64,000 nucleotides of DNA, from the NCBI GenBank assembly GCA_037783545.1, contig JBBELK010000972.1, positions 62,001-126,000 on the forward strand, read 5' to 3'. Position numbers and translations under genes: made by a program. The stretch is from Henricia sp. BOLD:AAB3569. Its lineage: Eukaryota > Echinodermata > Asteroidea > Spinulosida > Echinasteridae. Of this stretch, positions 21,986 through 64,000 are shown one piece after another. The notes under the pieces are model-generated. The model ran no database searches and was not told the origin of the DNA. It saw nothing but the letters and a program-made list of their open reading frames with translations. Within the stretch, counting starts at the first letter, position 1. Every line of letters starts with the position of its first letter.

Positions 21986-21989
21986 AATA

Positions 21990-34599: not shown

Positions 34600-36867
34600 T
34601 CATTCTATAAATTTGGGGTCCAATTTTTCTGTCCCCGTTACATCTGACATCTTTTCTTGTTGTTGTGCAATGCCGAACAGTTTGTTGCATATGGTATTTT
34701 TGCATATTGCAGGTGTATGGATCTCCATTTTTGAGTAGTGCGCAATGTACTCATCTACTTCGAGAACTGAGAAGTTTTCTCCGTCGAGCCGCTTGTTGAT
34801 CATACTCCATGTTGTCGTCTTGTTTATTTGAAGATCAAATTCTTGCTCTTGTTCTTGTGTCATTGTGGTGTTTGTTAGTTTTTGGAGAACTTTTATGTAC
34901 TCCTTTCTGGCTTTGGCAATTGTTGTGTTAGGGAGATAGATTGTTCCCTGATCTTGTAGTTTGTAGCAGGATGGATGTAAATCTGCATCTTTGTGCTGCC
35001 ATGGTGCTGTTTCCCAATTGAACATCCTCATTGCAGCACCTTGCATCTGTTGTTCAACGCCTTCCGATCTTCGTTGTTGATGACTTCTTTGAAGGGATGT
35101 TGGTTCGTTGTAATGATACAAGGAACTCTTCGTTGGCGAACCGGTGCAACGAACTTAATATGTATTTCTGTTGTTTCGCCACCGAGGAGTTCCTTGAATT
35201 TTTCGCAAGTTCGGTCTGTAACGTGCATCTTGTTAAATAACACGTATCTTTTTGCAGGAATGCTGGACCATTTGAAGGTTGACTCTGTATGCGTTGACCC
35301 TCCGATAATTGCATGGTTATCGCATGCTCGTTGTATCGGTTTTATGCTCCAAGTCTTACCGGCGTTCGATTGTCCATAAATCGCAAGAGAGTTTCTCTTC
35401 TGGTTGTGTCCTGCCTTATTGAAAATTGCATGGACAAGGTTGAGCCATTGTTCTACTGTTATGTTTTTGGAGTTTAGGAAGTATCCTAATGCTTCCTTGC
35501 TGTCTTCACTACTCATTATTATTTTGTTTGTGTCGTCATCGTAGCGCTGATTTAGGCCCCATCGACGTTCATATCGAGTAATGTATTCATCAAGTGAAGT
35601 TGATTGTTCTTCTTGTTTGTAGTGAAGAAGAGCATTGTTCCAGATGGGTCTGATCGTTTGTGGATTGATAGTTGCCCGGTGTAGTGCTGCTGCTGTTGTA
35701 TTTTGTCCGATGGAATCCATATATCTTTTTAGTTGTGGTGTCTCTTCGAATTGTGTTACTCCATATTGCCTCATGACGTTTAGGAATAAGTTATAGGTTT
35801 GTTCATTCTTTGGTATTTTGGTTTCGATGTTTGTCTCGCTGATAGTTGTTCTTTGCTGTGTCTTGCTTTGGGTCATTTCCATCCAGTGTACCGGATCGGT
35901 ACAATGTGCCCAATCGTCTAGCACATCGCCGTAATCTTGTAGGTAGACGCTTTGTTGATTTGTTGTCTTGTTTCGTTCTTGATTGCGTCTTCGATGTTGC
36001 AGGCAACAATTCTCGGCCGACAAGTAACGTAAGTAAGTGCTTCAGATCCCGATTTGAGTTCTTTGGATTGAACGATAATTTTGGTTGAACTTCTCAAGCG
36101 CTTGAATGCCTGAGTGTTCTCGGGTCTAAAGTCATTCCCATGCCAGATTAATAAATGGCAATGGGTGTTCAGGAATTCAGAATCGCCTTTGGCACACGCT
36201 GCCGAAGGCATATCGTTTTTCTGAAAATATGGCGTATTGACAGCTTCCAGTTTTGTCTTTTCTCGTAGACACATTTGGCCAAAATGAGCTTGTACCCACT
36301 AAAAGCTGGGTCTAATTTGTCTACTGTCAATTGTGACACTGTTTGAAGTGTTGGATCGTGTATGGTTAAAATGTGTCCAAATCTACTGTTTGACTCGTTC
36401 AGATCTTGTATGAAACCTCTTAGTTCCTTTACCATAGTGCCAATGGTACTGGTCGAGTCTCTCCGTGCGGCAATTATACCTATGTAACGGTACCCTCCGC
36501 AGATTGCCTTACGCTGGGCATATTCTGCAGCGAAGTTTTCAGCTGATTTAACTTCGCATAGTTTTAGGGTTCTTCCGCAGTATTCTTGCATATATGCCTG
36601 CATTGTAGCAGACATAGGTGTTTTGTACTGATCATCTATCTTTAGTGCGTAATTTTCGGGCCACCGCATATGAATGCATGATTGTGTTCCTACTTGTGAC
36701 AAAGGTTTCACAATTGTAGTGGCTTCGCCAGCTAATAGGCGATGAACATGTGTCGGGATTACTCGTTTCGAGATGCTTTCATGTAAACGATATCCCTTGC
36801 TTGCTTTTGCAAGGCATGTTATATATTTCAATAACTCGACTCTATCTCGGTCTCTTGCAGCTTGCAT
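34600..36867 (-). mobile_element. Parvovirus NS1-like replication gene fossil
   Basis: Read on the - strand, this resembles a densovirus/parvovirus-type replication protein. An HUH endonuclease motif (THCHLLIWHG) is followed by a superfamily 3 helicase with Walker A GQSNAGKT and the downstream ITTNQHPF block, in the order of NS1. It is broken, by about three frame breaks, but long open stretches remain, so the insertion seems fairly young. No capsid gene was recognised. A short frame with a hydrophobic segment (37037-37183, -) lies between it and the GC-rich hairpins at 37390-37745, which may be its terminal palindromes. The opposite terminus was not found. The exact genus cannot be given from motifs alone. 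Confidence 0.72.
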
Positions 36868-37389
36868 CTTACCTAGTTTTTACTTGTGCCGCTGCTGCTG
36901 CCTCCAAATTGTTTTGTTGGGTTGTTGTCTCACCACTGTCTGGTTGATCTTGTGCTGTAAATTAAATATAAAATATATTAAGTTTTTTTTGTCATACTGC
37001 TGCTGCTCGTGATTAAAATAATAATATAGAGGTTGTTTATTTGTACTTACGTTTTCGTAATGCTCTTAATGCTAATAGGCCGAGTACTGATGCTATTAAA
37101 CTCAATGATGCAATGATTTCTGCACCGAGTGCTGTACTGGCTATTGAATCATATGCTTGCTGTAGTATTACACTTGTGTTCATTCTCCAATGGTCTGGAA
37201 GCAAGTGATTGAATTATGTTCGTCACGTTAGATTTGTTTGAATTTTGTTTATCGCGTTGGCGTTACGCGCGCGTACTTGTTCTACGCAATACGCGCGTTG
37301 TGCGTATTGTTACTAAAAATAGGTTTTAGTTTTAAATGGGTTATTGTGTCAATGTACTTTTTGTTATTTGACTTTATAATCCCTTGGTA

Positions 37390-37745
37390 CTTTTCTATGA
37401 AGAGCAGCAGCAGACCGTTAGGTCTATGGTAATCCCATAGACCTAACGTAAACTGCTGCTGCTCGTGACAAAAAAAATGTATAGGTTTGTTTTTTAATGT
37501 TTTTTTTTTGAACGGCCTTGTAATGGCCGCTGCCGCTGCTCCCCCTCACTCTTTGCATGAGCCTTAACTATTTAAACTTCTTAGTGATTAAAGGGCATCA
37601 TTCAAAGAGTGAGGGGGAGCAGCGGCAGCGGCACCCTGACACGCGGCAGCCTTTTTGCGTACGCAAAAAACACGTACGTGTTTCGGCGCCGCGTGTCAGG
37701 GTGCCGCTGCCGCTGCTCCCCCTCACTCTAAATGGACTTTGGTAC
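37390..37745. repeat. GC-rich compound hairpins, possible parvovirus-like terminal palindrome
   Basis: Three inverted structures follow each other: a hairpin around GGTCTATGGTAATCCCATAG with GCAGCAGCAG tips; CCGCTGCCGCTGCTCCCCCT against its complement; and a longer stem, AGCGGCAGCGGCACCCTGAC with inner arms TTTTTGCGTACGCAAAAA. The nested stems look like the folded telomeres of parvoviruses. Position next to the NS1-like fossil supports this, but an independent foldback transposon is possible. The right edge meets the LINE fragment. Confidence 0.6.
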
Positions 37746-39010
37746 CTCACAGTGATTAAGTAATTTCTGAATGAGTAGATGTGGCTGGATATACCGGTAG
37801 TATTAAATGCGGATGATAAATCGAAAAACATCACTCTAGCAGAGTTACCATGTTGTGCACGTTCCAAATGGGCATATAACTTATCCAAAACAATCAAAAT
37901 TGCATAACTACAAGTACGATGTTTCTGATAAGCAAATTGCATGGGGTCAAACAAAATCTGAAACAAAATCCATTGACACACCCTTGAATAAACGTTAATG
38001 GCTGTCAAGGCAACCGGTCTAAGATCATTCATGTATGTAATAACAGAACACTTAGGAATTGGGATAATGCAAAAACACAATTTGGGGATACACCCAGTGC
38101 TAAAAGACAAGTTAGAAATAAGTAAAAACTTGCGAGAGCTGATCTGAACATAATTTTAAAACCCTAACCCGCTTTGAAAATACTCGACTTATGAAATTGG
38201 CGACGCACATCAGTTTCAGAAACATTCATCACATAACCATCTGGGTCGTTCCTAGTTATTTCTGAGGTTGTTAACTTCATCATTAAAATTATACTGATCA
38301 AAACAGTTGTATCCGGTAAATGGATATTCTTTTTAGATCCATTTGAATGTCCAGTCATAAGACTCATTCCATGCCAGACTTTGTTAATGTCGTTTTGTGT
38401 CAGACGCTGTTCAATGTTCTCCTCGTACTTGGTCTTCCCTGCCTTAATGGCCTGCTTCAAGTCTATTTGGATCTCCTTAAATTTAACTCTGTCACGCTGC
38501 CCAAAGATCTGCTTCTGTCTATTGAGTAAAACTGTCACCTCCTTCGTTATCCAGGGTTTATTATTGAGATAGATTTTTACCTCCTTTTTAAGAACAGCAT
38601 TCTCAGTACAGAATGTTACATAACAGCTGACCACATCGACGAGATCATCCAAGTCTGGGTTGGCTTTAATAAACACCTCCCAGTCTGTACACTCTTTTGT
38701 TACGTTTGGAGTGAAAAATGGCGGAATAATGATGTCTGTGACAGACTGAGAGTAATGCACCTAACAATTGTTTCCCCCCTCCCCCGCGAAACCCCACCCC
38801 TTAGGTAGGGGTTTGGTCACATTTTTCGTGGCCCATGGTGGGGATTTTGACCCATTGAAATACAATTTTGTGCATAATTGCATGTTTTGCACCCGAGAGT
38901 GGTGATTTCTGTCACCTAAATTGTGCCCCAGGGGTGGGGATTTTGTCACGCGAAAAGTGACAATCCCCACCTCTTAGGTGCGGCAGCCCGGGAAACAGAC
39001 TGAGAGTATA
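37746..39010 (-). pseudogene. LINE fragment (reverse transcriptase N-terminal part), 3' end cut by hairpins
   Basis: On the - strand, 38760-38164 reads the linker before a LINE reverse transcriptase (NNKPWITKEVTVLLNRQKQI and KYEENIEQRLTQ). 38110-37746 reads the first RT blocks (MNDLRPVALTAI, DPMQFAYQKHRTCSYAI, VMFFDLSSAFN). The YxDD block and 3' end are absent because the element stops at the GC-rich hairpins. The layout fits CR1/L2/Rex1-like non-LTR elements; the exact clade is uncertain. The frame changes near 38110-38164. A 240-base insert at 38755-38994 splits the upstream end. Confidence 0.75.
38755..38994. mobile_element. 240-bp insert in the LINE with 14-bp target duplication
   Basis: ACAGACTGAGAGTA stands on both sides (38741-38754 and 38995-39008). 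The insert is rich in GGGG/CCCC with TTAGGTG and CACCTAA near its ends. The long duplication suggests insertion by a LINE- or other staggered-cut route rather than by a TA or TTA transposon. No family recognised. Confidence 0.7.
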
Positions 39011-46408: not shown

Positions 46409-46922
46409 CTAGTGGATGTCTGCAAATTTGTTTACTGGTACCCCCCGATATTATGAGGATCGAGGGGAATGGGGAGGTTCCAAGGCCACGTAGGACTTTA
46501 CATGCACTGTAAAATGTTGATATATTTCATAACACTGACAAAACAAAGTTGATAAGTAGTATTTCGGGGAGGTCTTAAAAAATACTACTGTAATTGATAA
46601 TGAAGAACCAATAAATTAATCATGATCATGTGATGATCATGGATTGATACTGAAACTGATACTAAGGAACAAACAAACTATTCATGAACATGTGATGATC
46701 ACATGGTTCAACAGATTAAACGTTATCTCGTGGTAAACAACAGTTGAAGTGCACTGCAAAAACGTTGTGTAAAATGTTACTCAACATTCTACTCAACGTT
46801 GTCTAAGTATGTAATCGAACAGTTGTTGAGTAATGAAATGCACAACCCCGTTGTCAATTCACTTTACACAGCTGTTGGGTAATTAATTTTAGCAACAGTT
46901 GTGTAAGTATTATTTACTCATA

Positions 46923-47385
46923 TGTTGAGCATTTCTATTGATCAACCGTTGAGCATTTATATTGATCAACCGTTGAGCATTTCTGTTGATCAAACGTTGA
47001 GCATTTCTGTTGATCAACTGTTGAGCATTTCCGTTGATCAACTGTTGAGCATTTATATTGATCAACCGTTGAGCATTTCTGTTGATCAACTGTTGAGCAT
47101 TTCCGTTGATCAACTGTTGAGCATTTCCGTTGATCAACTGTTGAGCATTTCCGTTGATCAACTGTTGAGCATTTATATTGATCAACCGTTGAGCATTTCT
47201 ATTGAGCAACCGTTGAGCATTTCTATTGAGCAACCGTTGAGCATTTCTATTGATCAACTGTTGAGCATTTCTATTGAGCAACCGTTGAGCATTTCTATTG
47301 AGCAACCGTTGAGCATTTCTATTGAGCAACTGTTGAGCATTTCTATTGAGCAACTGTTGAGCATTTCTATTGAGCAACTGTTGAA
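46923..47385. repeat. 24-bp subterminal tandem array of the CACTA element
   Basis: About nineteen units of GTTGAGCATTTCT followed by TTGATCAACC or TTGAGCAACC. Each unit contains the near-palindrome GTTGATCAAC. Open frames of 165 codons on both strands arise because the unit is eight codons long; they are not genes. In CACTA elements, such arrays near the ends bind the element's own proteins. Confidence 0.9.
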
Positions 47386-47419
47386 CAACATCACACCGTG
47401 TATACACTCGGATTGCTGA

Positions 47420-48615
47420 TCACTGTTTATTAACACTTCAAACGTTGTAACTGCAATGTACCTTTTACAACAATGTAACTTTTAAAATTGTCAAAATTAC
47501 CTCCTTGAACACTGTCACAAAATGCCTAATTTTGCGTAAATAAGTTTCACGAAGACCCTATTTTGGCAGTATGCATTTTAGGGATTAATTCGGGGACATA
47601 TAATTGAAAAATGGTTCACAAAAATTCAAAGGCAAAACATGTTTATAGTGTTGACAAAAGCACGTAAACTTTATCACTATAGTTTGAAAATGACACTTTA
47701 CTTCATTGCAGATACTAAAAAGTCCTTTCAGTTCCAGTTACCTAGCACTATACACTCATAATATACGGTCATTTGCCAGTTGATTTCAACCAAAATGTCA
47801 GATTATAAACAAGCCCTGACACATTTTATTGAGCAACTTGCATCAGTCTTGTCTGTGAGGACAAGATTTTAAAGACAACAAAACAAAAACTCAATTTTAG
47901 AATCTGCCACTTTCAACTTGGCATCTTCCAATATTAATAATTTGTTTGTCGGATCCCTTTGCACCTCTTAATGAGCAGGGCAAAACAATCGAGCCAGGTG
48001 GTGTGCACTGTATTATAGGCGATTCCTTCAGAATAATTCTGTAGTATACGCACCTTCCGCTGCATGCACGGTCTCCAAAGATGTAATATGACATTAGAGG
48101 ATGCATGGAACGTGGCAGATTCTTAAATTGATTTGTGTTTTCATACGACTTTGAAATCTCACCTTCTCGGACAAGGCCATATACAACCGATCTCTCGCTC
48201 AATACAACTTTTCAATGCTTGTTTAATACATAATCTAAACATTTTGTTGAAAACCACTGGCAAATGAAAGTTATTTAAGATCAAAAGTATGACATTTTGC
48301 TGTATTTAAACACTTCAAATGCGAGTATAAACTGATGTCACTTTTCCAACACATTTTGTCCAAATTACTTTCTTGGACACTAAAAATGCCTATTTTTACG
48401 TAAATAAGACCCATAAAAACCTCTCTTTTTTCAATTTCAAGCATTTTGGGGATGAACTGAAAAGTATGCACTGAAATATGGTTTAAAAAGTCAAAGTGTT
48501 GTTGTCTTGTTAAAAACAAGTAAACTTGAGCATTATAGTTTGAAAACGACACCTTTTACTTCATTGATAACAGATGCATGTCATTTCAGCTCCAATTAAC
48601 TTTTTTGAAACATTC
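47420..48615. repeat. Diverged direct duplication inside the CACTA left end
   Basis: 47420-47770 and 48290-48610 align in the same order (TCAAAATTACCTCC against CCAAATTACTTTC; TGCCTAATTTTGCGTAAATAAG against TGCCTATTTTTACGTAAATAAG; TATAGTTTGAAAATGACAC against TATAGTTTGAAAACGACACC), with many differences. Ancient duplication of about 330 bases. The sequence between has no recognised exon. Confidence 0.7.
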
Positions 48616-49198
48616 GCATATTTTATGAACTTATGTACATTGTTAAGAACACTAAACAGGACTTAAGAAAAGCATATCTTGCAACAAAATTAAGGGAAAA
48701 AAGTCTTAACAATCCTTTAAAGCTTCTCAACCTTTGTGATTTCCATCCTACAATTATAAATTTGCGGGGGGGGGGGGAATGCCACTTGCATAGATGAAAC
48801 AAACAAAACTGGCTAAAAGAAGGAGCGCAACTAAAACTGAAACACAGCTCAGTACCTAACAAAAAGGCTCCTTATCTTGGTATTGAGCCAAGGACGTTTC
48901 TGTGTCCGAGGCTGAAAGACTGACAAAGTCCCGCGCCAGCCTCACTGGATATGTCATGGTTGATCCCGGGAGGCTAGCATCATATGGGATCAACATGCAT
49001 GGTCTAAGTGTTTGCAAAAAAACTTTTTTTTTTTAAAATCCATGTACGTGAAGTCCGTTTATACAAGTTGTTGGAGAAATCGCTTCGTTTGACGAAGATT
49101 TGACGAAGATATTTCATGACTTTAATGCACGCCTCGTACGACGAAGCAAATTTGTAATGTGAACGGTCCCTTCGTTTGGCAAAGCGATTTGAAAGGCC

Positions 49199-49440
49199 AG
49201 GGGCCAATTTCATGGCGCTGCTAAGCACAACAATTTGCTTAACACAGGATTTGTTTGCTTTATTTTGCCAAAATGGATTGCCAGCCAAAATCGTAAGTAA
49301 TGTGTATTGAAAGGTATTCTCTTACTCTTGCGAAGAACACAAGTTGGAGTATAATTTTGGCTGGCAATCCATTTTATAAAGCAAATAAATCCTGTGCTAA
49401 GCAAATTTTTGTGCTAAGCAGCGCCATGAAATTGGCCCCT
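49199..49440. mobile_element. MITE family D, copy 2
   Basis: Arms AGGGGCCAATTTCATGGCGC and complement, with inner GCTAAGCACAA and CCAAAATGGATTGCCAGCC blocks. 242 bases, inside the CACTA element. Confidence 0.85.
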
Positions 49441-49594
49441 GGTTGCACAAGCCTGCGTCATTGAAGCACATAGCTATAGCAGGAGGCAATGATGATTAGA
49501 CGCACCACTCAAACCACGCAGCGTGTGAGACACTTGACGCACAATGTACCAACGCGAGTGCATCTAAGCATACTAGTGGCCTCCTGTAGCTTCA

Positions 49595-49740
49595 TTCAAT
49601 CTTCGTTAGCAGTGGCCTAAAGTGAACAGTACCGCTCTTCGATCTTCGTCAAGTCAGATGTGAGACCACGATTCATTAGCTAACGATGATTAACTAATCT
49701 TCGTCGAACAGAGCGATTTTTCAAGTGAGAACAGGGTTCA
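49595..49740. mobile_element. MITE family L, copy 1
   Basis: Shares CTTCATTCAATCTTCGTTAG, TTAACGATGATTAA and ATCTTCGTCGAAC with 52785-52935 and parts of 49040-49195. Arms built from CTTCGTCGAAC/GTTCGACGAAG. All lie in non-coding parts of the CACTA element. Confidence 0.65.
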
Positions 49741-50189
49741 TAAACAGGAAAAAAATGTACTTGGTGTTTCTCGCTGTTAATACAGGTTTCCACACAGATT
49801 TATTTTTGTTTTCCTATTCTAATTCATGGCCGGTTAAAGTATTGTCTGTTTTTCTTAGCAATTTAGATTTTCTTTTTTTGTCCGAATTAGTTTTTAAAGC
49901 GTTTAATTTATTTGACTGAAAAAAAAAACATACTTTGTATTTTATAGGCAACCCTGTGACAAAAACGGCTTTTTTATACGGCCGTTTTTGCACCTTGCCT
50001 AGACTTGCCCAAGTCTGAATTCCTGTTTCTGTAATGCACAGCATACAAGTGTGCCCTTTGGAGTATAGTGGCCTGTCAAATCTCTTTTCTTCTGTCTCAG
50101 AAGACTTTCTGAGACGGAAGAAACAGAAGAAAAGAGATTGGACAAGGCACCGGTACGGAGGGAATGCTGTGCGTGCGCTGTAGACCAGA

Positions 50190-50460
50190 CACGAGAGGTT
50201 GGACTTAGGCAAGTCTACGCCTCGCCCAGTGAATACTTGATGTTAGGGGTTTGATACCCAGCCATGGTAACTGTGCCCTTGAGCGAGGCACTTAAACATA
50301 CTTGCTCCATCCTTCGGAGGGGATGTAAAGCCATTGGCCAATTGTGTTTTGTAACTCACTTAAAAGATTCCTTAACATTCTTTTGTGAAGAGATAGGGGA
50401 TTCCCCGGTGTCTCTGGCTGTCAGTTGCCAACGGTTCCACCCACCTATGCATCTTGATGT
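50190..50460 (+). mobile_element. tRNA-related SINE fragment
   Basis: Contains a B-box-like GGGGTTTGATACCC followed by the block GTGCCCTTGAGCGAGGCACT and TTGCTCCATCC...GGGGATGTAAAGCC. This pattern is common in tRNA-derived SINEs of fish and marine invertebrates. Exact ends and family were not determined. Confidence 0.5.
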
Positions 50461-50711
50461 TTAGGTGGAAGACACTTGTAAGCTTCATGCAATTTATGAC
50501 CAAATTCATTGTAGCTTCTGCACATTACACTCGTCTTGGGACGAAATTAAAGTTAACTGGCTATGAATTTGAATGGAAAACGTTTTAAAATGTGTGAGAA
50601 AACCTACATCACATATAACTATACCTCAAATATTCATCAGGCAGCCTTGGTATTTTATTGGTCCATTCTAGCAACTCGGTTGTGTGATAGTATACAGATA
50701 TTGACTGCAAT

Positions 50712-50840
50712 GAGGGGCATGGTTAAGATATAGGCCCAAGGTGATCTCGAAGCCATGACTATGCCCCTCGGCTTCCGTCTCAGGGCAAAGTCATGGCTTC
50801 GAGATCACTTTGGGCCTGTAATCTTAACCATGCCTCTTAT
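50712..50840. repeat. Hairpin repeat
   Basis: GAGGGGCATGGTTAAGATTA-like left arm and its complement enclose AGTGATCTCGAAGCCATGAC and its partner. A partial relative, with ATATTGACTGC and GAGGTGATCTTGAGAT, is at about 54180-54400. Confidence 0.7.
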
Positions 50841-51273
50841 AGTCAATTTTTATACACTATTTCCCTGTGTCTTCGCACACAGTGACACGTGTGCTGCACC
50901 TAAACCAGTGAGGTACTATCACACTATAGTCACAACCTTAGATTTTGACCAGTATGTCCTTATTGTTATAATTAAAAGTACCAACGATGCATGCGTGGAA
51001 ATCATTGGTGAGCTTAGTTGTAGTAGTCTATTACAGCATAAATTGAAATATGTAAGGTTGTATATGGTGCGATATTAAAAACTGGAGGCCCAGATTCTTG
51101 AGATACCGCGGCTACAGAATATTTTTAAGGTATAGTAAAACAAATACAACATGGTTTGAGGGAAATTAGTTCAAACTAATGATCCCACACGAGATAGTCC
51201 TGAACATCTAACACTTCAGGGTCACTACTTTTCAAAATTTCCCATCCAGCCACGTTGTATTTGCATACTATTA

Positions 51274-54200
51274 CTAATTGACAGAGCTGGAAAAATTGTG
51301 ATACGCTCTGAACTGCCGTATGGCAGGCGCTTCCCGACCTTTAGCAACTCCTGGTTGCTGGTATACACAGGCTTCTAGGAACTGCCATACAGTCTTACAC
51401 TGCTCCTGATACTCCATGTCAAACACATAATGTGCCTTGTAGCATGTATCCATAGCTTTCAGCAGTGAAGGTTGGGGAATGCCTCTTCTTTCCAGTACCA
51501 CAAATGACTGCGACGGGTCCAACATGTTATCCGAGTACAGCATTAAGATGAACGGTTGCGGCCTCTTGGTGCTGTCAACGTGTTTCAGATATTCTGGCAT
51601 ATTGATGATATCCTACAAAAAAATTAAAAAGACAGGTGTTAGTTTTATATTAGATACCCAATATTTATTATATTAATTGAAGCATCAAGCTTTTGCAGAT
51701 ACCGTGCATTTCTGATACTGTGCACCACAAAACCGCAATCCGATGTGCCTTCACCTGCTTACACCAACATTTGGAAGCTTTCGACATTATTTGCCCATTA
51801 ATAAATACCTTAGACAGTTTACGCATCCCTATTGGATAAGAGAACGTCATGTGATCAGTCTTAAACAGACGATAAAGACCGGCTAGCCGGCCGCATGGAC
51901 CACACACGCATACATACATATGCGTTCCTGAAAGCAAAATATGCACTGAGAAAATCTACCCGGTCGTGTGTATGCGCGTACAACACGACTGCATTACCCT
52001 AAACAGTACCCCGGTACATGTATGTTTAGAAGCGGCTGGGTGGGGACCTAGAGGCTGATAACGACCCGAGCCATAAAGCTGGGGACCTTTGACACAAATA
52101 GTAAAACCTTGAAATGTATCAAGTGAACAAACTACCAGGCTAAACTTCAGTTCACTGAAGTAGCAATTACCAAAACAACATTGTTTGAGAGTACAATTAT
52201 CAGAATTATTTAATGGAGGTGACATATGTACAATGGCGCTAGTCACCTCTGCGTCATCTTGGTGAATGGCATTTTTGGCAGTGTTTCACATGTCAAGGAA
52301 TGAAAGACTTACTCTTTATTTTTCCTACTGTTTTCTAACTTCAAATGATCATTGAAACCATTTGTAATAGGTTTTAGTTTCCAGACCCAATGAATGTATA
52401 TCAGTTTTGCCTGTTGCATTATTTCTATAAATACTAACCAACTGAGCATCAATGAATGATGCCATCACCTCAGAAGATGCACACCTCCCACTGTGCCTTC
52501 CCTTGTGCCTGCCTTCAAAGATGAGAGGCATCATGTGAAATGCCAAATTATTCTTCTCATCTGCAAAACAGTCAATAGAATGGAATCATTCAAACACTTT
52601 GATCCTATAAAATGTGGCTGTTTGCACATTGAAAACAGTAATACCATGACCAAGTGTTTTGGGTCAATGACTCGCAATCATAGTTAAAAACTTGGGGTTG
52701 CGGGTTCTAACGTTGTTTTTGACGTGTCACTGGAAAACCACACAGCGTGTCTAGACGTGCGACGCGCATGTACGACCTCCCACAGCTTCATTCGATCTTC
52801 GTTAGCGGTTGCTTATAATGTGTACGGTACGTCTTCATTCGATCTTCGTTAAGTGAAATGTGAACGCACGCTTCATTAATTAACGATGATTAAGTAATCT
52901 TCGTCGAACGAAGCGATTTCTCTAGTGAGAATGGGGTCAAACTCATGATATTTGCCTTATCTCTTTGACTTTATGTACATTTTTGGAACTTGTGTACAAA
53001 ATAATTTTTACCTGCTGATAATTTCTCAATGTCAAGGTCATCCTCCAAGTGTAGTCTTTCTTTCCACTGTGGACACATCTGAATCCCATACTGCACAAGC
53101 GAGTTACTGAATCCTCCCCATGTCTTGTACAGGTCCTGTACATTTGGGTACATGACTGTGTAGTCCTGCTCAATCTACAAAAAAAAAAAATATTCCGTCA
53201 ACCCTAAAAATTACAATGTACATGTAAGTCTCAACAATTTTTTTCAACATTTTATAAATTGACCCTACAACCCTGAGAAACAAGTCTCAACATTTGTTTT
53301 AAACATTTTGTAAATTTAGGCCCTACCATCAAAAATCATGGCTGGTATCAACACAATTTTCTTTTCGGTTGAGTTCCTTGGGACCGAGTTGACCTGGGAC
53401 TGAGTTGACTAGGGAGCAATTAAGTTGGTTTGGGACCAAGTTGAACTGCACCCGGTGCGGGTTTCGGGTCATGTGACATGTGTGATGGATGGAAAACAAG
53501 CGTGATTAATGCCCGCGACTGGTCACGTGAAATGTTGCAACATATCCAATTTAAAGCAACTGAAACATACCATGCCAGGGTTAGTTAGACGTGGATATTC
53601 GTTTAAAATGTCTCCAACCGTCTTTGGTTCCTCATTATCCCTGATCCAGTGGAATCGGTGTCTTGCAGTAGCGGCCATTTTTTGCTTGACTTCATCCTCA
53701 GGCCCAAGATGGTCTTTCAACCACTGACGTAAACCAGAAATTTCCGTTGATGTGTCCGTCCCTTCTGAATCTGAATCATCAACTGTTTCTGGGACAGGCT
53801 TTGGATTTTCTGTGAAGAAATGGAGAACACTATAACACCCTACATATTTAGCAAATCCTCCTAGGAAGAGAAAGGTAGCCAGGGTGTATACTCACTTGGC
53901 TTGCATTTATTTTTACACAAGTGGAATATGGCACCTTGGTATAAAGACATAACTTCTCCGATACAGCAAATGTCCCATTGTGTACGTAACAAATGAAATT
54001 AAAACACTAATACTCTGACATTAAACAAACTTGATCGCAGTAGGATTGGAACCTGCAACCACAATAATTCTGTCAATATCATTATTCGTATATTATATGA
54101 GCAACAAATCTGTGCTTACCTTGTTGGCCAATGTTTAATTAACACGTGAACAAACATTATAAATATTAAAACCTGGGAAATGACAGGCCAGGGATCCATT

Positions 54201-57200
54201 GATTATACAATTGATATATACAATATACAAATATTGACTGCTCCTTGGGGTGATGGTGCAAACTAATGTCCCGAGGTGATCTTGAGATAGTATGCTTGCT
54301 ATTTCCCTCCGAGGCCGCAAGTTGAGGTAAAATAGCAGGCCTGCCGTCTCAAAATCCCCGAGACGGTAGTTTGCACCATCTGTTTTATATACCTGCATTG
54401 ATTTTTGAATCCAATGATTGTTATTTCAGGATCAGATTGTTTTGCTGTGAGCAAAAGTGCACTCGCCATAAATGCACATTGTCTGTGTAACGGCAAACAA
54501 TACTGGGGCAGTTCCACGATGTCGGCATACATTTTTGACACTGACAGGGTGTATTCTTAAAGCTACAATTTGAAAGTGGATTGTCAGTCCATTAACAGAC
54601 AAGTGGTAGTTAGTACAATGATTTAGTAAAAGCTTTAAGAAAACACCCTGTCAAAGCAGCTAGGTCAAAGTGTCCAAAATGTACGTCTGACACCGTGGAA
54701 CTTCCCACTAGTTGCCTCACAAACACAGATGCGCAGGGGAATAGTGCATCACCTGCACTTCCTCCGTTTACATAATCACACTATTATGAATATACCTTTT
54801 GTTTTAGGTGTCTCTTCTCTCAACAGTCTTGACCTGACATATCTGAGTCGTACTTCTAGGTAGCCCCCTGCAGGTCGCTTGTGGGCTCCTTTGAAATAGT
54901 ATGCTTCCTGGAATACAGCAAGGATGTAATAAACTGCTATAAATCTTGTAATTTAATAACGAGAAGAGAATACACATGTTAGGCTCATTCAAAAAAACAT
55001 AGCTTCAAATTAGGTTAACTTACGTAGCCTGTTGCTCCCAGAGGGTCTCTGAGACAGTGAAATGCAGCTATATTACTGCCTGAGCTAGTGCTGCCTTTTC
55101 AAAGGCACCTGGGCTGTGAAGAAACAACAAACAAATGCAACACTAAGATGGTAAAATACCCTGCACTTCTAACAAAAACTTGTCGCCTATTTCCGTTTTT
55201 TAGCTTTTTGGTCTCAATACTTTAAAGGAAATTGACACTAAGGCATTAACAAAAACATTCATAAGATAATTTTCATCAACACTGTTCAAGGCGAGCTTTT
55301 AAAAAGGTAGGCTTTAACTTAGGGCAAGATTTGGAGGATCCATTGCTTTTTAGTTTCTTGAAAAAGAAAAAATCCAGCTTTAAAGATACATGTACCATTG
55401 TACCGTGCGACTCTAGGCAGAAGACTCAATCTAACTCAGAATTAAGTTACATATTTACTTACTTGGGACCATGGTGTTCAATGAGATGTGCAACAAGCTG
55501 TGCGACCATTTCACAACGATGTTGCTTTGAAGCAAAACCATTCCGACTGATGAATTCAATCGCCTTTCTGCCTCGGGTCGTTTGGCTCAGTATTTTGTGG
55601 ACATCCTTCAGAGAAATACATATATTGAAACATACCCATTAAGTGATACGAATTATCAAGAGTGTCATCACACATGGGAGTTGTATATGGGAGTATGTAA
55701 TGTATGTATTTAAGTGTTGTATATATGGGAGTGTACTTTAGGTTCCCGACTGTAAATAACATGTAACTGCATGAACTGTGTATATGAATGTACATGTAAA
55801 TATGCTGTACATGTACAGTTGCGGAACAAGCGACATAAATCTTGTTGCCTCTCTGGACCAAGCAGGACGCTTGGCAGTGCATTGCAAATGTAAGGCGCGC
55901 AGATTGTAAACAGTGTGCATGCATGTGTACATGGTATTTACATGTTATTTTCATGTTAGTCAATGTTAAAATTATGTTATTTTATAAAATAAAGGCTATT
56001 TCAAGAGCTTTAAAATGATTTAAAGTTTATCTCTCTAGGGCCATTATTTTTAGAGATATAATTGTCCAAACATATACAGCAGGTCATGCTAATTAGTCAA
56101 ATGTTTGTTGACCCGTATATCAAACATTAATTGACCGAATGACATAACATTTTAGTTCTCGGGGTTTCTCAAGGAGTCCAATCAGCACACCAAATTTGAT
56201 CCATGATGGTCAGGTACAAAAGCGTATTGAATTGACACGGAATGACCCCAAAAACATCCTTAAAAGGCACAGGCTCGTCAGCAATGCGCGTGCGCCAAAT
56301 TCGTGACACGCGATACGCAGCTCCATGCCTTTGCTACACGAAGCTGCATACTATTGACGAGCCTGTGCCTTTAAGTAGTAAATGGCCTCCAGAATATTCG
56401 GGTTTGAAATTAAATCTAAATCTATGTTATATACTTACAAACAAGACTCTCTTCATTCTCTTCAATGGTGGCATTGACTCCTCAACTGTCGATTGACCTT
56501 CGTCTTCAAAGCTGGCACATGGTGATGTGTCTGTCTCAGACAAATATGAGTAATCACTCATATTTCCCAAGTGTAGATCAATAGAATCACGTGAGGCACT
56601 TTGGACCCTTAGTGGTGCAAGCTGTACCACTCGCACTGGTTCACTGATTTTAAACTGTGGAATATAATACAACATACATGTAATTATGCTTAAAAGTACA
56701 TGTTGTAGACATAAGACAACAACCCTTTTTTCATATTTACATGTACATAATGTACTTGCTGGATAAAAGAGGCTAAATATTTTCATGGGTATAATTCGCA
56801 TGTGCCTAATCACTTTGTCATTACATTGTTGAGCAAAAACAACAAAAACCTAAAATTTCAGTTCAATAAAAAGTGTAAACATTTCTTTTGTTGACATTGG
56901 AACATTCACTGCAGAGCTTCATTATGTACGAAAATCACATTGACTGTTTTTTTTATTAAAAAAGTTAAGAAAATGTTTGCATGTCATTTCTGGCTCAATA
57001 TACATGTACATGTACATGTACATGTATGTCAAGCAAAGGAAGTACATGTACATGTACGTACATGTACATGTATGTGTATATGATCACACTAGGGTTAAAG
57101 AAATATCTCCTGGTGGTCATTCTACATTTTATACTGGTAATTTTGTTTATTTACAAAAAAATTAAAACTGTCTCACACTATTTATATTTAATGAATGGTA

Positions 57201-60200
57201 ACCATTCAAATGATCTGAAACAACCAAACTTGGGCACTGGGCTGAGATAAAATGAGTTTTCTTTCAGTATTTGCATTTACATTCCAGCTCAGGTTTAGCC
57301 ATAAATACACAAGTGTACTTACCGGAAACCGACTACAAAATGTTGAATGGTATAGTCACATACCAGGTGTGATCTTCCTTGTTGTGACACTTCGTGTGGT
57401 GAAATGGGCGCCAGGCAAATAGATCAGTTGGTCTTAAAATCTTAGAAGATTCACTGCATGCTGCAACAGCATGTGCTTGCATGTGCCTGTTGAAGTAATG
57501 AGTCTTCCAGGGATGCACAATGAGGTACACGTTGTCGTCGATTACAATAATATTCTCCAGTTTTGCAAACTGTGGTCCATCTTCATTCCAATCTGTGAGC
57601 ACGAGGTAATTTGGCTTAAATATGTAGCTCTGGATTTCAAGGCTTTCCGCGACGATGATAAGAGTATCTTCAGCACAACCAAAGACTGTACACACCTCAT
57701 CTGACCCATCCAGTGCTGAAACCTGAACTGGGAGCTGATGCTTGATGTTTATTTCGCATCCTTCACATCGCTTCAGAAAGATGTAGCTCTGTTGCTGCTG
57801 GTGTCTGAGAGTGACTGTTTTGGTGATATTCCGGTAATTGTTGCAGGCATGAGCCCATTTTTTGAAGGGTTTGTGCTTTCCCTCCTTCCTCATACAAGAA
57901 TACTGCGGGAGGGGCCCAAGCAGTTGAATTATCCTGGGATAGTGGACAAGATTGTGTTGCTTTGCTATGAGATGACGGTCTGGGAATATATCAAGGAACA
58001 GTCTGTGGTGATCATGCACCAACTGTTTCAAAAACACTGTTCCGGCCTTACTGATGCTTGGAGCCATTACCAGTTTGTAGATATCAAGCAGGAGTAGCAA
58101 AAGTTCCCATACATCTGATGTTTCACAAACCAAGTCTCCTATGATTAGGGCAAGGTATTGAGCCAAGCAGTTCATCTGTGCAGCTGTTTGTCCACTTGCA
58201 CCACTAGGATTAGTTAAGGCCGTTTCAGATATTGGGCTGGGAACATTCTTCTTGTCGATAAATCCATAACTGAATGACGCTATTCGATTATTCACCTCCC
58301 TGAGAGTGAAACATCCATCATTGACAAGCGTAGATAGGATAAGCTTAATTTCCAGTGGTATAATTCCTTCAAGAAAATCATGCATGACGTCAGGAGCGTA
58401 GTTTCTTGTCACATGGAAACTCGGTATTTGATTTAATTTTGAATCTCTTTTGACACCTGTTTCAGATAAGTTGGCTGTTGCAATATCCTCAGCAAAGTTT
58501 TCTTCGTTCCTTAGCAGTGTTATGTCCTCTTTAAGCTGCTGATGTGTTAATTGCCTCGTTGCTTTGCAATACCGACATGGAAAGTTAGCTGTAAAACATG
58601 CTGAGAATCCAAGTATTTGGTGGAGACCTAGATTATCGCCAATGACTTGAAACAGAACTGGCCTGACCATGCCCGTAAAGGAACTACATGAAATATGAAG
58701 GCCAACAATCTCCAATTGTGTTAAGTCGTGTACAATTGGCGTGAGAATGCAGTCAACACCATATTTGGCAACAATGGTACTCTTACAGCAAGCAGCCAGT
58801 AATATATTGGATAAACTTGCTTGGTATTGTGCAGGTAAGCACAGCAGACTTATGTAGAATCCACTAATCTTGTTTCTCCCTTTCCTGGAACCTAAAGGAT
58901 TACCTACTTCGTAATCATCATTATACAACAACAGGGGGATAACTACTTCCCTGGCCTGGTGAAATTTGCCTTTGTAGTAACTACCATCCCGGTAGGTTAT
59001 CAACAAATCATCATTTCCAGATAATTGGTGGTTAAGTATTGCAGACATCATTCCAGGACGCTCAAGGTGTTTCTTTATTGTTTTATCAATGGGAATATAC
59101 TGGTAAGTATCATCCTTAAGAACTTGCTTTACTCCGCCCGTGGAACTGTCAACTTGGGAAACAAAACTCCTACCAGCAGTTTTCTCTTCAGGGCTGATGA
59201 ACACTCCTTGTTCTTTAAAGTACTTGTCTTGTTGATGTTGAGTTCTCAAGCCACGAAATGGTTCTTTTAATTCATCAAACTCATGAAGAACTTTATCGCA
59301 TTGATCTGCATTAGGAATTCTACCTGCCTTTATGTCTTCTACTAGTGTCACAACCTTTTTTTGCAGACGCTCAACGATATTTCCAGTCAATTCATCTGCC
59401 TCATCAATAACATTTTTGATAAACTGATGTGGAACATATGATGCCTTCATGTTTGCAATAAACATAGCAACATCTTGACGGATGTCCAGTCCAGTTTTAC
59501 CTGCCCCATCACATTGCATGAAATCCACTTCATTCGGTTCATCATTCTCATAATCCTCTTGTTCAATGTCTTGTCTTTCCCTTGGATAATTAGTTTCATT
59601 ATTGTTCTCTAGCTCATCAGCTACATGTACATGCGTTGACAACAAATGTTTCTTGTAGGCAGCTAGGTAAGAAAAATTTTTCTTGCATCCATTTTGGCTA
59701 CAGATCATATGCGTGGAGGTTTGTGATGTTACACGGTGTATATATTTCAAGTGATTTAATAAATCCTTGATCCCTCCAGGAATCTTTCCTAAGCACTTGT
59801 AACACAGCATTTGTGACGCCTCAAAAAATGTTCATTATCAAAAAATTAAAACTCACATGTTCTTTCCATTTCTGCAGAAATCTGAGCCGCAGCCCTAATT
59901 TTGGCACCAGCTCGACAATCATTTGTTCTGTCAGCAATGCTAGTGATTCTAGGTCGAAACCATTATCTGTGAGTGAAAATTTACAAACAAAAATTATACT
60001 ACCGGTAATAATAAAATGCATTCATTTTGTTTTCTCTTTAATTGCAACTTTTATCTCCACTGTACTTTAATTTTTTTGTAAAGTTTATTTAAAACATTCA
60101 AGCCAAATTATTTTACGTTAATGTAATGCAATAGGCCAATTAAAAAAATTACAATGGCAGGATACTATTTTCAACAGTAGGTACTAGGTACCAAGAACAT

Positions 60201-63200
60201 TGGAAAGTGGAAAATTGGAAATTGGTTTCAACTTTCGAGTTAGACAGTGTGCTGAACAATTTAATCTGTCAGGCTGATTTTCTTTTTGGTGCAGGTCTAT
60301 TGGGGCTGGTTTTCTTTATATTTGTGCCAAATATCATGCAAATCATGCAAGTGGTGAGATTTTCCGCCCCAAAATATCACCAAAATCGACAGTTGGCCGG
60401 CACTGTCAACTACATGTACCTAGTCTTGATTCAAGACACCAATACGGGCACGGCCACAAGCATAAAGTGCCCTCATGCTCTGCTTAGCACTGCTGTTTAA
60501 TGTCAGTTGATAGCACCCTGTTTATAAAGGACAAGATAAATAACGCTTGAATTTAAGACTAACCAAGAAAAAATAACATGCTTCGTGCCAATTTTTGAAG
60601 TTGCATTTTAACAAGCATAAAACAAATGAATTTTTGCAGCAAAAGTATTTTTGAAATCTACATGTATTGCAGCTTGTGTGTTGTGTAAAAGTGGTTTTAA
60701 CTCAAAATAAAAATTCTGAATTTGTTTTCCAAGTCGCTATATAGGCCTACGGCTGCTAAGGTCGCAGCCGTTGAGCGCTTAAGCACCATGAGTATCCTGC
60801 TAAAATATGTGCGCTATATAAGATGCCATTATATATTATCATAGTCATGCCTCTATTGGTGTCCTGAATCAAGACTAGGTATAGTTAACGGCGCCCGCCA
60901 ATTAACTGCCAGTTTTGGTGATATTTTGGGGCGGAAAATCTCACCACTGCACAGGTGGATTTGGAAAACCAGCCCCAATAGACCTGTACCAAAAAAAAAA
61001 CAGCCTGGCAGATTAAATAACAGAAACTGGTATTTTTTCCTTATACATTGAACAAAGATTTGAATGAAATTACCTTCTGGAAGCAACAGATCATCAAATT
61101 TTAAGATATAGGCCTACTTCGCACTTGCACTTTTGTTGCAAATGTTGCATTTCTGAGATAAATAAACTAAAGGATAAAATTACTGCATAAAGTAATCAGT
61201 AATGCACAAAATTACGGCGTGAGCGGTCCGTGCGTAAGCGCAATATGCCAATAACAGGGGACGCTGCACGCGTGCGGGAATGGTTATCTTGTGCACTAAC
61301 TGAATGCAATTTTTTAAGGAGAAAATGTGATTTGTTTACAGAAAAGCAACATTTGCGACAATCGTGGAAGTCAGTGGGAAGTATATCTTATGCACCTATC
61401 AATTCGTCGGTCGCACCACGAAGTGGCTTATCAGTAAAAAAAAAAAAAAAATTCAAATTTCTGTTTTTGGTATAATTTGACTTTATTTGGTGTCCTTAAC
61501 ATTTATGCAAAGTTACGAGACTTGACAATTTGTATTTGTTTAATTACAGAAGTTGCCTTAAACCACGTAACAGTGGTATTGCAAATTTACTTTTTCACGA
61601 AGTGGCGTATCGCGATACGCCACTCATAGAAAAAGATGGTATGTGCATGCATAAATTTCTTTTTCACGAAGTGGCGTATCGCAATACGCCACTTCGTGTC
61701 GTATACGCCACTCATAGAAAAATATGGTATGTGCATAAATTGCATTTTCACGAAGTGGCGTATCGCGATACGCCACTTCGTGAAAATGCCACGCGCCGGG
61801 GCGAGTTGTAAATATTACGCGCGCAGAGAAATACAGACAGGGGGCGAATTCTGTGGCAAATCACGCATGGTCGGCATTTTTCTTTTTCACGAAGTGACGG
61901 ATATGTTTTCAGCTAAAGTGTTCTTTAATTAGACAATCAACACAATACAAAAGTATATTTTTACGTCATTTAACTCATACTAAAAAGTATCACCTAAAAA
62001 GACTGACGACTTTTCATAGAATAACCGGCGAAGTTTGAGTTTTAAAAATTCACCAACTTCAAATGCGATTTTCTCAAAACAAAGTTTTACTACTGCGTTT
62101 GCAGATACGCCACTTCGTGGTGCGACCGACGAATTGTTCCCCCTCCTACCCTCCTGACCGCCCCCCCTTCCCCCTCCTCCCCTCCTGACCGCCCCCCCCT
62201 TCCCCCTCCCCCCTTCCCCCTCCTCCCCCCCTCCCCACCCTTCCCCCTTCCCCCTCCCTCCCCCCTCCCCTCCTGACCCCCCTCCCCCCCTCTACCCCTG
62301 GGACTCACCAAACCACACTGCGCAGGCCAAGGGGAATAACAAGCCACGATGAAGATTTAGCCTAAAACTTTTTGGGCCGGACACGACGCGTTTGTATACA
62401 ATAGTCTATCGGTATAGTACGTGTACATATGCATGTACCATGTATGTACCATGTATGTACCATAGAGTGGCATGTATTTCTTCCTCCATGCATGTACAGT
62501 GTAAATATCAACGATGTCAATGCGTATGCGAGATACCAGTGCACAAACTGGTGCACTGATGATGTGCACACTTATCTGCACCCGCACCGCGTACGTCCGA
62601 CCAACCGACTGAAGCGCACACCAGACGACTCGGACGTACGCGGTGCGGGTGCGAATAAGTGTGCGCACCAGACCGTGCACAAAGCAATGACCGTTGTCGT
62701 GTATGTTCCGAGCGAACCGACAACTCATCAGCTCAGCTAGCTAGCTATGCCTAGCCTCAACGCTAGCTGCACGCATGGGCTATACTGTAGTAAAAAAAAA
62801 AATTCGCATTTGGATTTTTTCGAAAACCCAACGTTTCTGACGGAAATGTTAGTGGAACTTGGTAGGCCTAGGCCTATTCTAAAATCAAAGCTATCGATTT
62901 CAATATTTCAATTTCTTAAATTCGATCTGTTGTGACATAAAAAGTAAATAACTACCGTACGTGACATGTCGATCGTCATGATCCTGGCCTAACCCTTTTA
63001 AATTTCATGAACCATGTAGGCTATGCTTTATACTGTGATGTATATGTAGGCATGTGCATAGCATATGCGCCTAGGCGAAGCATGTAAAGTATAAACTATG
63101 GCTATGCCGAGTGTACGATGAAGGAAATGACCGAGTTACCGTAATTCTACCCATGCATGTCCGCGCCCTACTGCGGGACCGTATTATGAACTTAATAAGA

Positions 63201-63300
63201 TACATAAATATTGCAAGTTAAAAATGATTTTACCAGTAAATATCTGTTCCAGCTCCTCCAACCCCCAGTCCGACAGTAGCTCTGACAGTGTCGCCGCCAT
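51274..63300 (-). CDS. SAM-domain (SAMD3-like) protein encoded by the CACTA transposon, ten exons
   Basis: Exons on the - strand: 63234-63300, 59857-59966, 56439-56654, 55463-55605, 55024-55113, 54796-54907, 53571-53809, 53012-53174, 52439-52560, 51274-51612. All borders are GT/AG. Exons 1-2 give a complete SAM domain (LLSDWGLEELEQIF, GFDLESLALLTEQ, LVPKLGLRLRFLQKW), starting at ATG 63300. Exons 4-6 carry GRKAIEFISRNG, RDPLGATGY and GGYLEVRLRYVRSRL. Exon 7 has WLKDHLGPEDEVKQKM and TVGDILNEYPRLTNPGM. The last exon ends VWQFLEACVYQQPGV near the stop. This layout is that of the repetitive fish and invertebrate genes labelled SAMD3-like. About 530 residues. Exon 5 contains an extra TA (GTAATATAGCT) that throws the frame; every other phase agrees, so the copy is slightly damaged or uses an alternative acceptor. 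Function unknown; an accessory protein of the transposon is my inference. Confidence 0.8.
56259..56374. mobile_element. Palindromic MITE family B, copy 5
   Basis: Runs from TTAAAAGGCACAGGCTCGTC to GACGAGCCTGTGCCTTTAA with a reduced inner arm. It lies in intron 3 of the SAM-domain gene, just outside exon 3. Confidence 0.75.
57333..59810 (-). CDS. CACTA (tnp2-like) transposase, 825 residues, with two C2H2 fingers
   Basis: One uninterrupted frame. Residues 3-25 and 37-60 are C2H2-type fingers (CYKC...HLKYIH and CSQNGC...HLLSTH), likely for DNA binding. An acidic linker follows. The catalytic core shows LLYNDDYEVGNPLGS (about 295-308, first Asp), GDNLGLHQILGF (about 391-402, second Asp), a CRYC zinc pair (412-415), and NYAPDVMHDFLEGIIPLE (about 470-486), matching the D-x-MHD-x-x-EG signature of tnp2/En-Spm transposases. 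Later blocks QHNLVHYPRIIQLLGPL and YSCMRKEGKH are also typical. It lies inside intron 2 (phase 0) of the SAM-domain gene, same strand, 46 bases after that exon's donor. It may be expressed from the same promoter by skipping or retaining the splice. No frame damage seen. Confidence 0.85.
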   Translation of the reverse strand: MLCYKCLGKIPGGIKDLLNHLKYIHRVTSQTSTHMICSQNGCKKNFSYLAAYKKHLLSTHVHVADELENNNETNYPRERQDIEQEDYENDEPNEVDFMQCDGAGKTGLDIRQDVAMFIANMKASYVPHQFIKNVIDEADELTGNIVERLQKKVVTLVEDIKAGRIPNADQCDKVLHEFDELKEPFRGLRTQHQQDKYFKEQGVFISPEEKTAGRSFVSQVDSSTGGVKQVLKDDTYQYIPIDKTIKKHLERPGMMSAILNHQLSGNDDLLITYRDGSYYKGKFHQAREVVIPLLLYNDDYEVGNPLGSRKGRNKISGFYISLLCLPAQYQASLSNILLAACCKSTIVAKYGVDCILTPIVHDLTQLEIVGLHISCSSFTGMVRPVLFQVIGDNLGLHQILGFSACFTANFPCRYCKATRQLTHQQLKEDITLLRNEENFAEDIATANLSETGVKRDSKLNQIPSFHVTRNYAPDVMHDFLEGIIPLEIKLILSTLVNDGCFTLREVNNRIASFSYGFIDKKNVPSPISETALTNPSGASGQTAAQMNCLAQYLALIIGDLVCETSDVWELLLLLLDIYKLVMAPSISKAGTVFLKQLVHDHHRLFLDIFPDRHLIAKQHNLVHYPRIIQLLGPLPQYSCMRKEGKHKPFKKWAHACNNYRNITKTVTLRHQQQQSYIFLKRCEGCEINIKHQLPVQVSALDGSDEVCTVFGCAEDTLIIVAESLEIQSYIFKPNYLVLTDWNEDGPQFAKLENIIVIDDNVYLIVHPWKTHYFNRHMQAHAVAACSESSKILRPTDLFAWRPFHHTKCHNKEDHTWYVTIPFNIL
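60258..61022. mobile_element. 765-bp foldback element in intron 1 of the SAM gene
   Basis: Ends TTTAATCTGTCAGGCTG and its partner CAGCCTGGCAGATTAAA. Arms of about 170-200 bases include TATTGGGGCTGGTTTTC and TTTCCGCCCCAAAATATCAC. The interior is AT-rich and non-coding. Confidence 0.8.
61024..61393. mobile_element. MITE family A, copy 3 (right end truncated)
   Basis: Same orientation as the copy at 1222-1611: CTTATACATTGAACAAAGA, then the block GTAATGCACAAAATTACGGC and CTTGTGCACTAACTGAATGC. It stops at GGGAAGTATATCTTA, where the family K element begins. Confidence 0.75.
61400..62136. mobile_element. MITE family K with internal palindromes
   Basis: 737 bases with tips CAATTCGTCGGTCGCACCAC and complement. 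Inside, the tip-derived palindrome CACGAAGTGGCGTATCGC (and complement) recurs at about 61597, 61670 and 61750. A poly-A/T stretch follows the left tip. No coding sequence; open frames through the repeats are artefacts. Confidence 0.8.
62138..62300. repeat. C-rich polypyrimidine tract
   Basis: Continuous CCCTCC/CCCCTTCC sequence with hardly any purine. Low complexity, in intron 1 of the SAM gene. It could form unusual DNA structures and is a likely site of length variation. Confidence 0.9.
62540..62690. mobile_element. Hairpin MITE with GC-rich arms
   Basis: Arms CACCCGCACCGCGTACGTCC and complement, extended outward by GTGCACACTTAT and ATAAGTGTGCGCAC. In intron 1 of the SAM gene. Confidence 0.75.
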
Positions 63301-63397
63301 GATCGATGTGTGTGTTTCGCGCGCTCGCCCTTACTTTTACGCAACGTTGGTTAATTTTAACCTCGTGGTCCCCGGCCATTTGCTCAACTGTTGTCAA

Positions 63398-63799
63398 TTT
63401 CATTTTCCCGCCATTTTCATTAAATCAACAAATGTGTAATGAAACGCGGCTCTCCAACGTTTTTATTCAACACCTCTTACTCAACGTTGGGGAAAGCATA
63501 ATACTCATAAGTTATATAAAAGTGCGCAAATTTAAACATATGTTGCATAAAAATGTGTTCAACAACTGATGAAAGTAATTTACCCAACGAATTATAAATT
63601 TCATTTTCCCGCCATTTGCATTAAATCAACAAATGTGTAATGAAACGCGGCTCTCCGACGTTTTTATTCAACACCTCTTACTCAACGTTGGGGAAAGCAT
63701 AATACTCATAAGTTATATAAAAGTGCGCAAATTTAAACATATGTTGCATAAAAATGTGTTCAACAACTGATGAAAGTAATTTACCCAACGAGTTTTAAA
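63398..63799. repeat. 201-bp tandem duplication at the right CACTA end
   Basis: Two copies almost identical, each beginning TTTCATTTTCCCGCCATTT and containing TACTCAACGTTGGGG and GTTCAACAACTGATG. The CAACGTTG and TTGAACA words match the left end. The pair lies between the first exon of the SAM gene and the right tip, so it probably covers the promoter. Confidence 0.85.
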
Positions 63800-63815
63800 C
63801 AACTTTTTTGCAGTG

Positions 63816-64000
63816 TGGTATCTCTCTGGATTAGCGTCGTATTGGGGTAAAGTCCGCATTTCGTGACTCTTACCCTATAAAAAATATGGGCAATAAAGAG
63901 CAAAAGGTTACATCATATCCTACATCTCCTGTCCTGATAATCTTGCGACTTATTTAGAGCTTTTCGTGGGGTGCGGTGGGGAAAATACCGTACACGCCAG
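63816..64000. other. Flank right of the CACTA element
   Basis: Begins with the TG target duplication. No exon or repeat recognised in the short stretch left. Confidence 0.5.

Follow-up and report, generated by a model that had tools for sequence, protein, structure and literature searches.

A CACTA-like transposon of the sea star Henricia with a transposase nested in a SAM-domain gene, probably a variant of the En/Spm plan

Passages on plant transposons in PMC2613891 describe Spm of maize as an 11-exon tnpA unit with the tnpD frame in its intron-1 region, report that TnpA binds the subterminal repeats and that transposition needs both proteins, and note that TnpA of En-1 and TNP1 of Tam1 have little similarity to each other (PMC2613891). 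Here we describe a locus of the sea star Henricia sp. BOLD:AAB3569 in a window of 64,000 nucleotides (the whole stretch of DNA analyzed: contig JBBELK010000972.1 of assembly GCA_037783545.1, positions 62,001 to 126,000, numbered below from its first letter). With a probability of roughly 0.72 by our own estimate, the 17,064 bp between 46752 and 63815 represent a CACTA-like (CMC/CMCT-type) transposon that is organized like maize En/Spm. It contains a transposase frame and a ten-exon gene with a sterile alpha motif (SAM) domain, and by analogy with En/Spm the layout points to the SAM protein as a second protein of the transposon itself, the counterpart of TnpA, rather than the product of a stray host gene.

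Tips that begin with CACT and a first exon close to one of them are common to En/Spm, to Tam1 of Antirrhinum and to the Henricia locus. The TG pair at the ends of the Henricia element comprises 2 bp, and the target-site duplication of Spm 3 bp. Further similarities to En/Spm and Tam1 (tnpA/tnpD and Tnp1/Tnp2) are the large transposase frame nested in an intron of a gene with many exons and, for En/Spm, the subterminal repeats at the ends, which are bound there by the second protein, as far as the passages on these elements go (PMC2613891). In contrast to En/Spm, the host is an animal, the transposase is located in intron 2 instead of the intron-1 region, the tips read CACTG instead of CACTA and, judged by the layout, a SAM-domain protein occupies the place of TnpA.

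The ends of the element are defined by the exact 11-mer CACTGCAAAAA, which occurs only twice in the 64 kb, at 46752-46762 on the plus strand and at 63805-63815 on the minus strand, and which is part of a terminal inverted repeat of 23 bp with 91% identity. Together with the flanks the ends read GAAGTG|CACTGC...GCAGTG|TGGTAT with a 2-bp TG pair on both sides, so that the inverted tips begin with CACT and show the CA..TG ends of CACTA/EnSpm elements. If one mismatch is allowed, CACTGCAAAAA has seven matches compared with 3.34 expected; this relaxed form was rejected as stand-alone evidence, because four of 100 shuffles reached the observed count.

The subterminal sequence is better evidence for the element ends than the tip word alone. 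The word GTTGnGTAA is found five times in the left 669 bp and five times in the right 486 bp, but the interior (15,910 bp) and the 46,936 bp flanking the element contain it only once each, and nine of the ten terminal sites are oriented inward (four of five on the left, five of five on the right), with two of the right sites being copies produced by a 201-bp duplication. For GTTGAGYA the corresponding counts are 22, 3, 1 and 1, and 19 of the 22 words at the left end are part of an array of 24-bp units. Both words were picked after inspecting the sequence. A test independent of the chosen word, for which the ends were reduced to one array unit and one duplication copy and the tips were excluded, gave a score of 223.5 for the 7-mers shared by the two ends, compared with a mean of 48.5 (standard deviation 34.7) for randomly drawn pairs of segments from other parts of the window; this score was reached by 6 of 5000 pairs, with a largest value of 1044.8. 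Subterminal repeats common to both ends, as known from CACTA/EnSpm elements, are present, and the right subterminal region is presumed to be the promoter side. The first-pass annotation of this DNA had claimed that the tips, the TG pair and shared subterminal words bracket both the transposase and the ten-exon SAM gene, and the exact tips, the 23-bp repeat and the word counts bear this out.

The transposase is encoded by an unbroken frame of 825 amino acids with the CMC-type motif order D-D-C(2)C-H(3)H-E (D298/299, D392, C412-x2-C415, H619-x3-H623 and E643), in which position 298/299 is an acidic pair and the three acidic residues were identified visually, without an alignment. Only one C..C and one H-x3/4-H are located between D392 and E643, which conforms to a DDE transposase whose second D and E enclose C(2)C and H(3-4)H. 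Such an arrangement between the second D and the last E is listed for EnSpm, Mirage, Chapaev, Transib and their relatives in passages of PMC12730594. At the N-terminus two C2H2-like patterns are visible, which reach an E-value of only 0.11 with Pfam zf-C2H2. A search of the PDB with the transposase gave no match, and the structure model with a mean predicted local distance difference test (pLDDT) of 33 is too poor to be interpreted.

The SAM gene consists of ten exons on the minus strand, which were located by hand and then verified by script, and all nine introns are of the GT-AG type. The joined frames are open for exons 1-4 and for exons 6-10. Its ATG (63300) lies 515 bp inward of the right tip, in agreement with the distance of about 0.5 kb given before. 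Exons 1-2 match Pfam SAM_2 with an E-value of 6e-4 and 20.4 bits, just below the curated value of 20.5, and SAM_1 with an E-value of 0.009, which places the SAM domain at the N-terminus as in SAMD3-like proteins. The name SAMD3-like itself is tentative, with the computed match covering the SAM domain only. Support from the PDB is poor: three chains were found at E<=1, the best of them from CHD4 (0.12), which does not count in favor of a SAM domain, and a chain of Bicaudal-C, a SAM structure, only at 0.71. The basic stretch PLKRMKR encoded by exon 3 is a possible nuclear signal, and exon 7 shows a sub-threshold match to DUF6434 (E-value 0.069). A PDB search with exons 6-10 yielded one match, at an E-value of 1, and the model of exon 10 (mean pLDDT 46) is too poor to be interpreted.

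What connects the two genes is their position relative to each other. The transposase frame is located within intron 2 of the SAM gene and on the same strand, as in the many-exon second gene of En/Spm, and its ATG follows the exon-2 donor (59856, GTGAGT) after 46 nt. At the other side, a CCG|GTAAGT donor is found 10 nt past the transposase stop; it is one of two GGTAAGT sequences on the minus strand of the 64 kb, and its score (position 57322) ranks 5 among all minus-strand positions of the window and 2 within the element. This arrangement is hardly to be expected of a bystander gene, and because the transposase is nested in SAM intron 2 as in the En/Spm plan, we assign the SAM gene to the element. 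The nesting and the candidate donors thereby lend good support to the earlier claim that both genes belong to a single CACTA-like element. Neither the position of the transposase inside SAM intron 2 nor a break in SAM exon 5 had been part of that annotation. The coordinates of all features of the element are given in Table 1.

Table 1. Features of the CACTA-like element and its flanks (positions in the window)
Feature	Position	Strand	Basis or remark
Left TG, presumed 2-bp target-site duplication	46750..46751	.	Flank sequence
Left terminal inverted repeat, CACTGCAAAAA tip	46752..46774	+	Word search, inverted-repeat search
Left subterminal region	46775..46922	+	Five left GTTGnGTAA words in 46764-46906, the first overlapping the inverted repeat
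Array, 19 copies of a 24-bp unit	46923..47384	+	GTTGAGYA word every 24 bp; candidate protein-binding array
SAM exon 10, stop codon	51274..51612	-	Exon check
SAM exon 9	52439..52560	-	Exon check
SAM exon 8	53012..53174	-	Exon check
SAM exon 7	53571..53809	-	Exon check
SAM exon 6	54796..54907	-	Exon check
SAM exon 5, frame broken within	55024..55113	-	Exon check
SAM exon 4	55463..55605	-	Exon check
SAM exon 3, PLKRMKR	56439..56654	-	Exon check
Splice donor GGTAAGT, proposed distal donor of the transposase exon	57321..57322	-	Donor scoring
Transposase, 825 aa, inside SAM intron 2	57333..59810	-	Frame and motif analysis
SAM exon 2, second half of SAM domain; donor GTGAGT at 59856	59857..59966	-	Exon check
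SAM exon 1, ATG, first half of SAM domain	63234..63300	-	Exon check, Pfam
Right subterminal region	63391..63792	-	Two 201-bp tandem copies (98%), inward GTTGnGTAA words
Right terminal inverted repeat, CACTGCAAAAA tip	63793..63815	-	Word search, inverted-repeat search
Right TG, presumed target-site duplication	63816..63817	.	Flank sequence

The positions of the donors 59856 and 57322 fit an origin of both proteins by alternative splicing of one transcript, and one long exon with two alternative donors seems to be the simplest reading of the layout. A single transcription unit would begin near the right tip and proceed leftward. Use of the proximal donor 59856 would join exon 2 to exon 3 and yield the SAM-domain protein as the TnpA-like product, whereas skipping of this donor and use of the distal donor 57322 would retain the transposase frame in a long exon, and SAM exons 3-10 would come after this frame in the resulting TnpD-like mRNA. 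The SAM protein might bind the GTTGnGTAA and GTTGAGYA words at both ends, multimerize via SAM-SAM contacts of its SAM domain and in this way draw the ends together, and it might also modulate the element's own promoter. The transposase would cut at the tips and carry out the joining.

Several points weigh against an En/Spm-like element with these two products. The 2-bp TG match of the flanks has a chance probability of about 1/16, and the evidence comes from one copy; a second copy of either gene was not found within the window. Pfam Transposase_21 (PF02992) gave no match, neither with the whole frame at E<=1 nor with four pieces at E<=10, and therefore the element is classed here as CACTA-like (CMCT type) instead of as an established member of the tnp2 family. 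The parts of exons 1-4 and 6-10 beyond the SAM domain match no Pfam family at its curated cut-off (search at E<=1), so no DNA-binding domain is recognized in the SAM protein. Exon 5 is entered and left in different frames and has an in-frame stop inside, so the SAM product of this copy is probably truncated or defective, if the break is not an assembly error in exon 5. The donor scores are also not uniformly in favor of the proposed exons: two of the nine SAM donors rank 26th-27th in the window and four rank 254th-356th, and the unassigned sites 54119, 48162, 48053 and 53895 score as high or nearly so. The site at 54119 (minus strand) is the best-scoring donor of the element and is located in SAM intron 6 without an assigned exon, where a further or alternative exon may exist. 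If the SAM frame is read through the exon-2 donor, it ends at a stop 10 nt before the transposase ATG, and for this reason it is hard to explain how the transposase would be translated from a transcript initiated at exon 1. Polyadenylation-like words follow the transposase within intron 2 (57192, 57151 and 56957), which makes a separate transcript end possible instead of splicing to exon 3.

Three other explanations of the locus have to be weighed, and the most serious of them, which we regard as unlikely, is that a CACTA-like element acquired a SAM-domain gene of its host as mere cargo, in the way plant CACTA elements do with fragments of host genes. Capture of host gene fragments is frequent in CACTA elements according to passages of PMC8195511, and the broken exon 5 would suit a gene that is merely carried along. 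A passenger, however, would be expected beside the transposase and usually as a fragment, whereas the ten-exon gene extends from ATG to stop with exon 1 only 0.5 kb from the tip. Capture also leaves the nesting unexplained, that is, the position of the transposase in SAM intron 2, on the same strand and between two candidate donors. The reverse scenario, in which a transposase gene invaded intron 2 of a host SAM gene and the distant tips are coincidental or belong to another repeat, appears improbable to us. It could draw on the one-mismatch tip word, which is not clearly rarer than expected by chance, and on the fact that no second copy is known, but the 46 nt between exon 2 and the transposase ATG are too short for a tip and a promoter, and the tips around the whole share the 23-bp inverted repeat and the subterminal words. 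Moreover, the transposase frame has no flanking inverted repeat inside the intron: the longest exact inverted match around it is 8 nt, compared with a mean of 7.96 and a maximum of 14 in 200 shuffles. The lack of a flanking repeat and the small gap also led us to reject the idea that the transposase belongs to a nested element of its own.

Slightly less probable still is an in-frame splice of exons 1-2 to the transposase, by which a SAM-transposase fusion would be made alongside the SAM protein. In its favor, exon 2 ends in phase 0 and an in-frame AG is found 9 nt upstream of the transposase ATG, but the intron would have only 37 nt and a poor acceptor (GAG), and joining in frame has a chance of one third anyway. 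Introns of 37 nt are below the usual length in animals. We prefer the En/Spm-like element with two alternative donors, for which parallels of different closeness can be found among other transposons.

In soybean Tgmt* (20.5 kb) the donor from which the TnpA-like mRNA is formed lies within the transposase exon, and an unrelated subterminal binder was proposed for this element, too (PMC2613891). Tgmt* differs as a plant element with 3 bp instead of the 2-bp TG pair and with a mosaic product without conserved domains, for which the passages on it mention no SAM domain (PMC2613891). SmTRC1 of Schistosoma mansoni, one of the animal TRC elements, is an animal relative of CACTA; 7 of 14 copies have 2-bp direct repeats, its transcripts are alternatively spliced and include a second protein, and one cloned partial transcript has two frames (PMC1636069). 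In contrast to the Henricia element, SmTRC1 has a length of 4.5 kb, tips that begin with CCC and a transposase with a Transposase_21 domain, and its second proteins are not detectably conserved, with no SAM domain mentioned in the passages concerned (PMC1636069). EnSpm and the other CMCT families of Repbase share the C(2)C and H(3-4)H motifs, mostly CA..TG ends and target-site duplications of 2-5 bp, and differ in that the respective passages mention no SAM-domain partner (PMC12730594). No animal element in which a SAM-domain protein takes over the position of TnpA was found in the titles, abstract openings or passages searched. The two-product plan is already known, and the SAM-domain version is probably a new variant of the En/Spm plan.

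The first-pass annotation had suggested that the spread of such SAM genes would be explained if they were second genes of a CACTA lineage. A more far-reaching and tentative proposal, to which we give somewhat less than even odds, assigns the many SAMD3-like genes of fish and marine invertebrates to a single animal CACTA lineage: they would be its TnpA-like second product, the lineage having preserved the En/Spm layout with the transposase frame in a SAM intron and a choice between alternative donors, and stand-alone genes, including vertebrate SAMD3, would be immobile or domesticated remnants. If the arrangement holds in other copies, it would provide a source for the gene family annotated as SAMD3-like in fish, and animals, too, would possess the nested two-product plan of plant En/Spm, with another second protein. 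In this case, many SAMD3-like gene models may be transposon genes, which would have to be masked. A link of SAMD3 or the sterile alpha motif to CACTA/EnSpm was not found in titles and abstract openings, a search with most subscription journals and Repbase outside its scope. Two SAMD3-like genes are part of a carp-goldfish expression table, which shows only that the annotation exists in fish (PMC6771007), and passages of two other papers name SAMD12-like and SAMD9-like genes (PMC8117508; PMC10706053).

Scans for relatives with exact 8-residue patterns covered viral and prokaryotic contigs and no animal genomes, so that the absence of relatives says little. The transposase gave two pattern matches in the viral and 11 in the prokaryotic genome contigs and SAM exons 6-10 one in the viral contigs, none of which was confirmed, and the degenerate pattern PD-x-MHD-x-LEG had no match in either set.

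Within the element, the stretches 49198-49441, 56263-56350 and 61028-61390 have similar DNA elsewhere in the window, and further inverted repeats are located at 60350-60948 and 61586-61786; all of these look like later small insertions that enlarged the introns and the 3' part. Scans of the window for tRNAs and Rfam families gave no hits. Outside the element, a 317-amino-acid frame at 4813-5763 (plus strand) has a RING finger (zf-RING_UBOX, E-value 4.5e-7) followed by another Cys/His cluster, and by eye it is reminiscent of RAG1-type N-terminal regions. An Ulp1-type protease frame (Peptidase_C48, E-value 1e-14) lies near a frame without a Pfam match (20437-20991 and 21295-22005, both on the minus strand), and these two may belong to another transposon. 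The minus-strand frame at 35031-36041 resembles the NS1 helicase of parvoviruses (Pfam Parvo_NS1, E-value 6e-10) and looks like an endogenous virus-derived remnant; the adjoining minus-strand frames 36172-36879 and 34603-35154 have no Pfam match. Finally, 37601-38155 (minus strand) is probably a remnant of a long interspersed nuclear element (LINE), as it shows a weak reverse-transcriptase match (RVT_1, E-value 6e-4), below the cut-off of this family.

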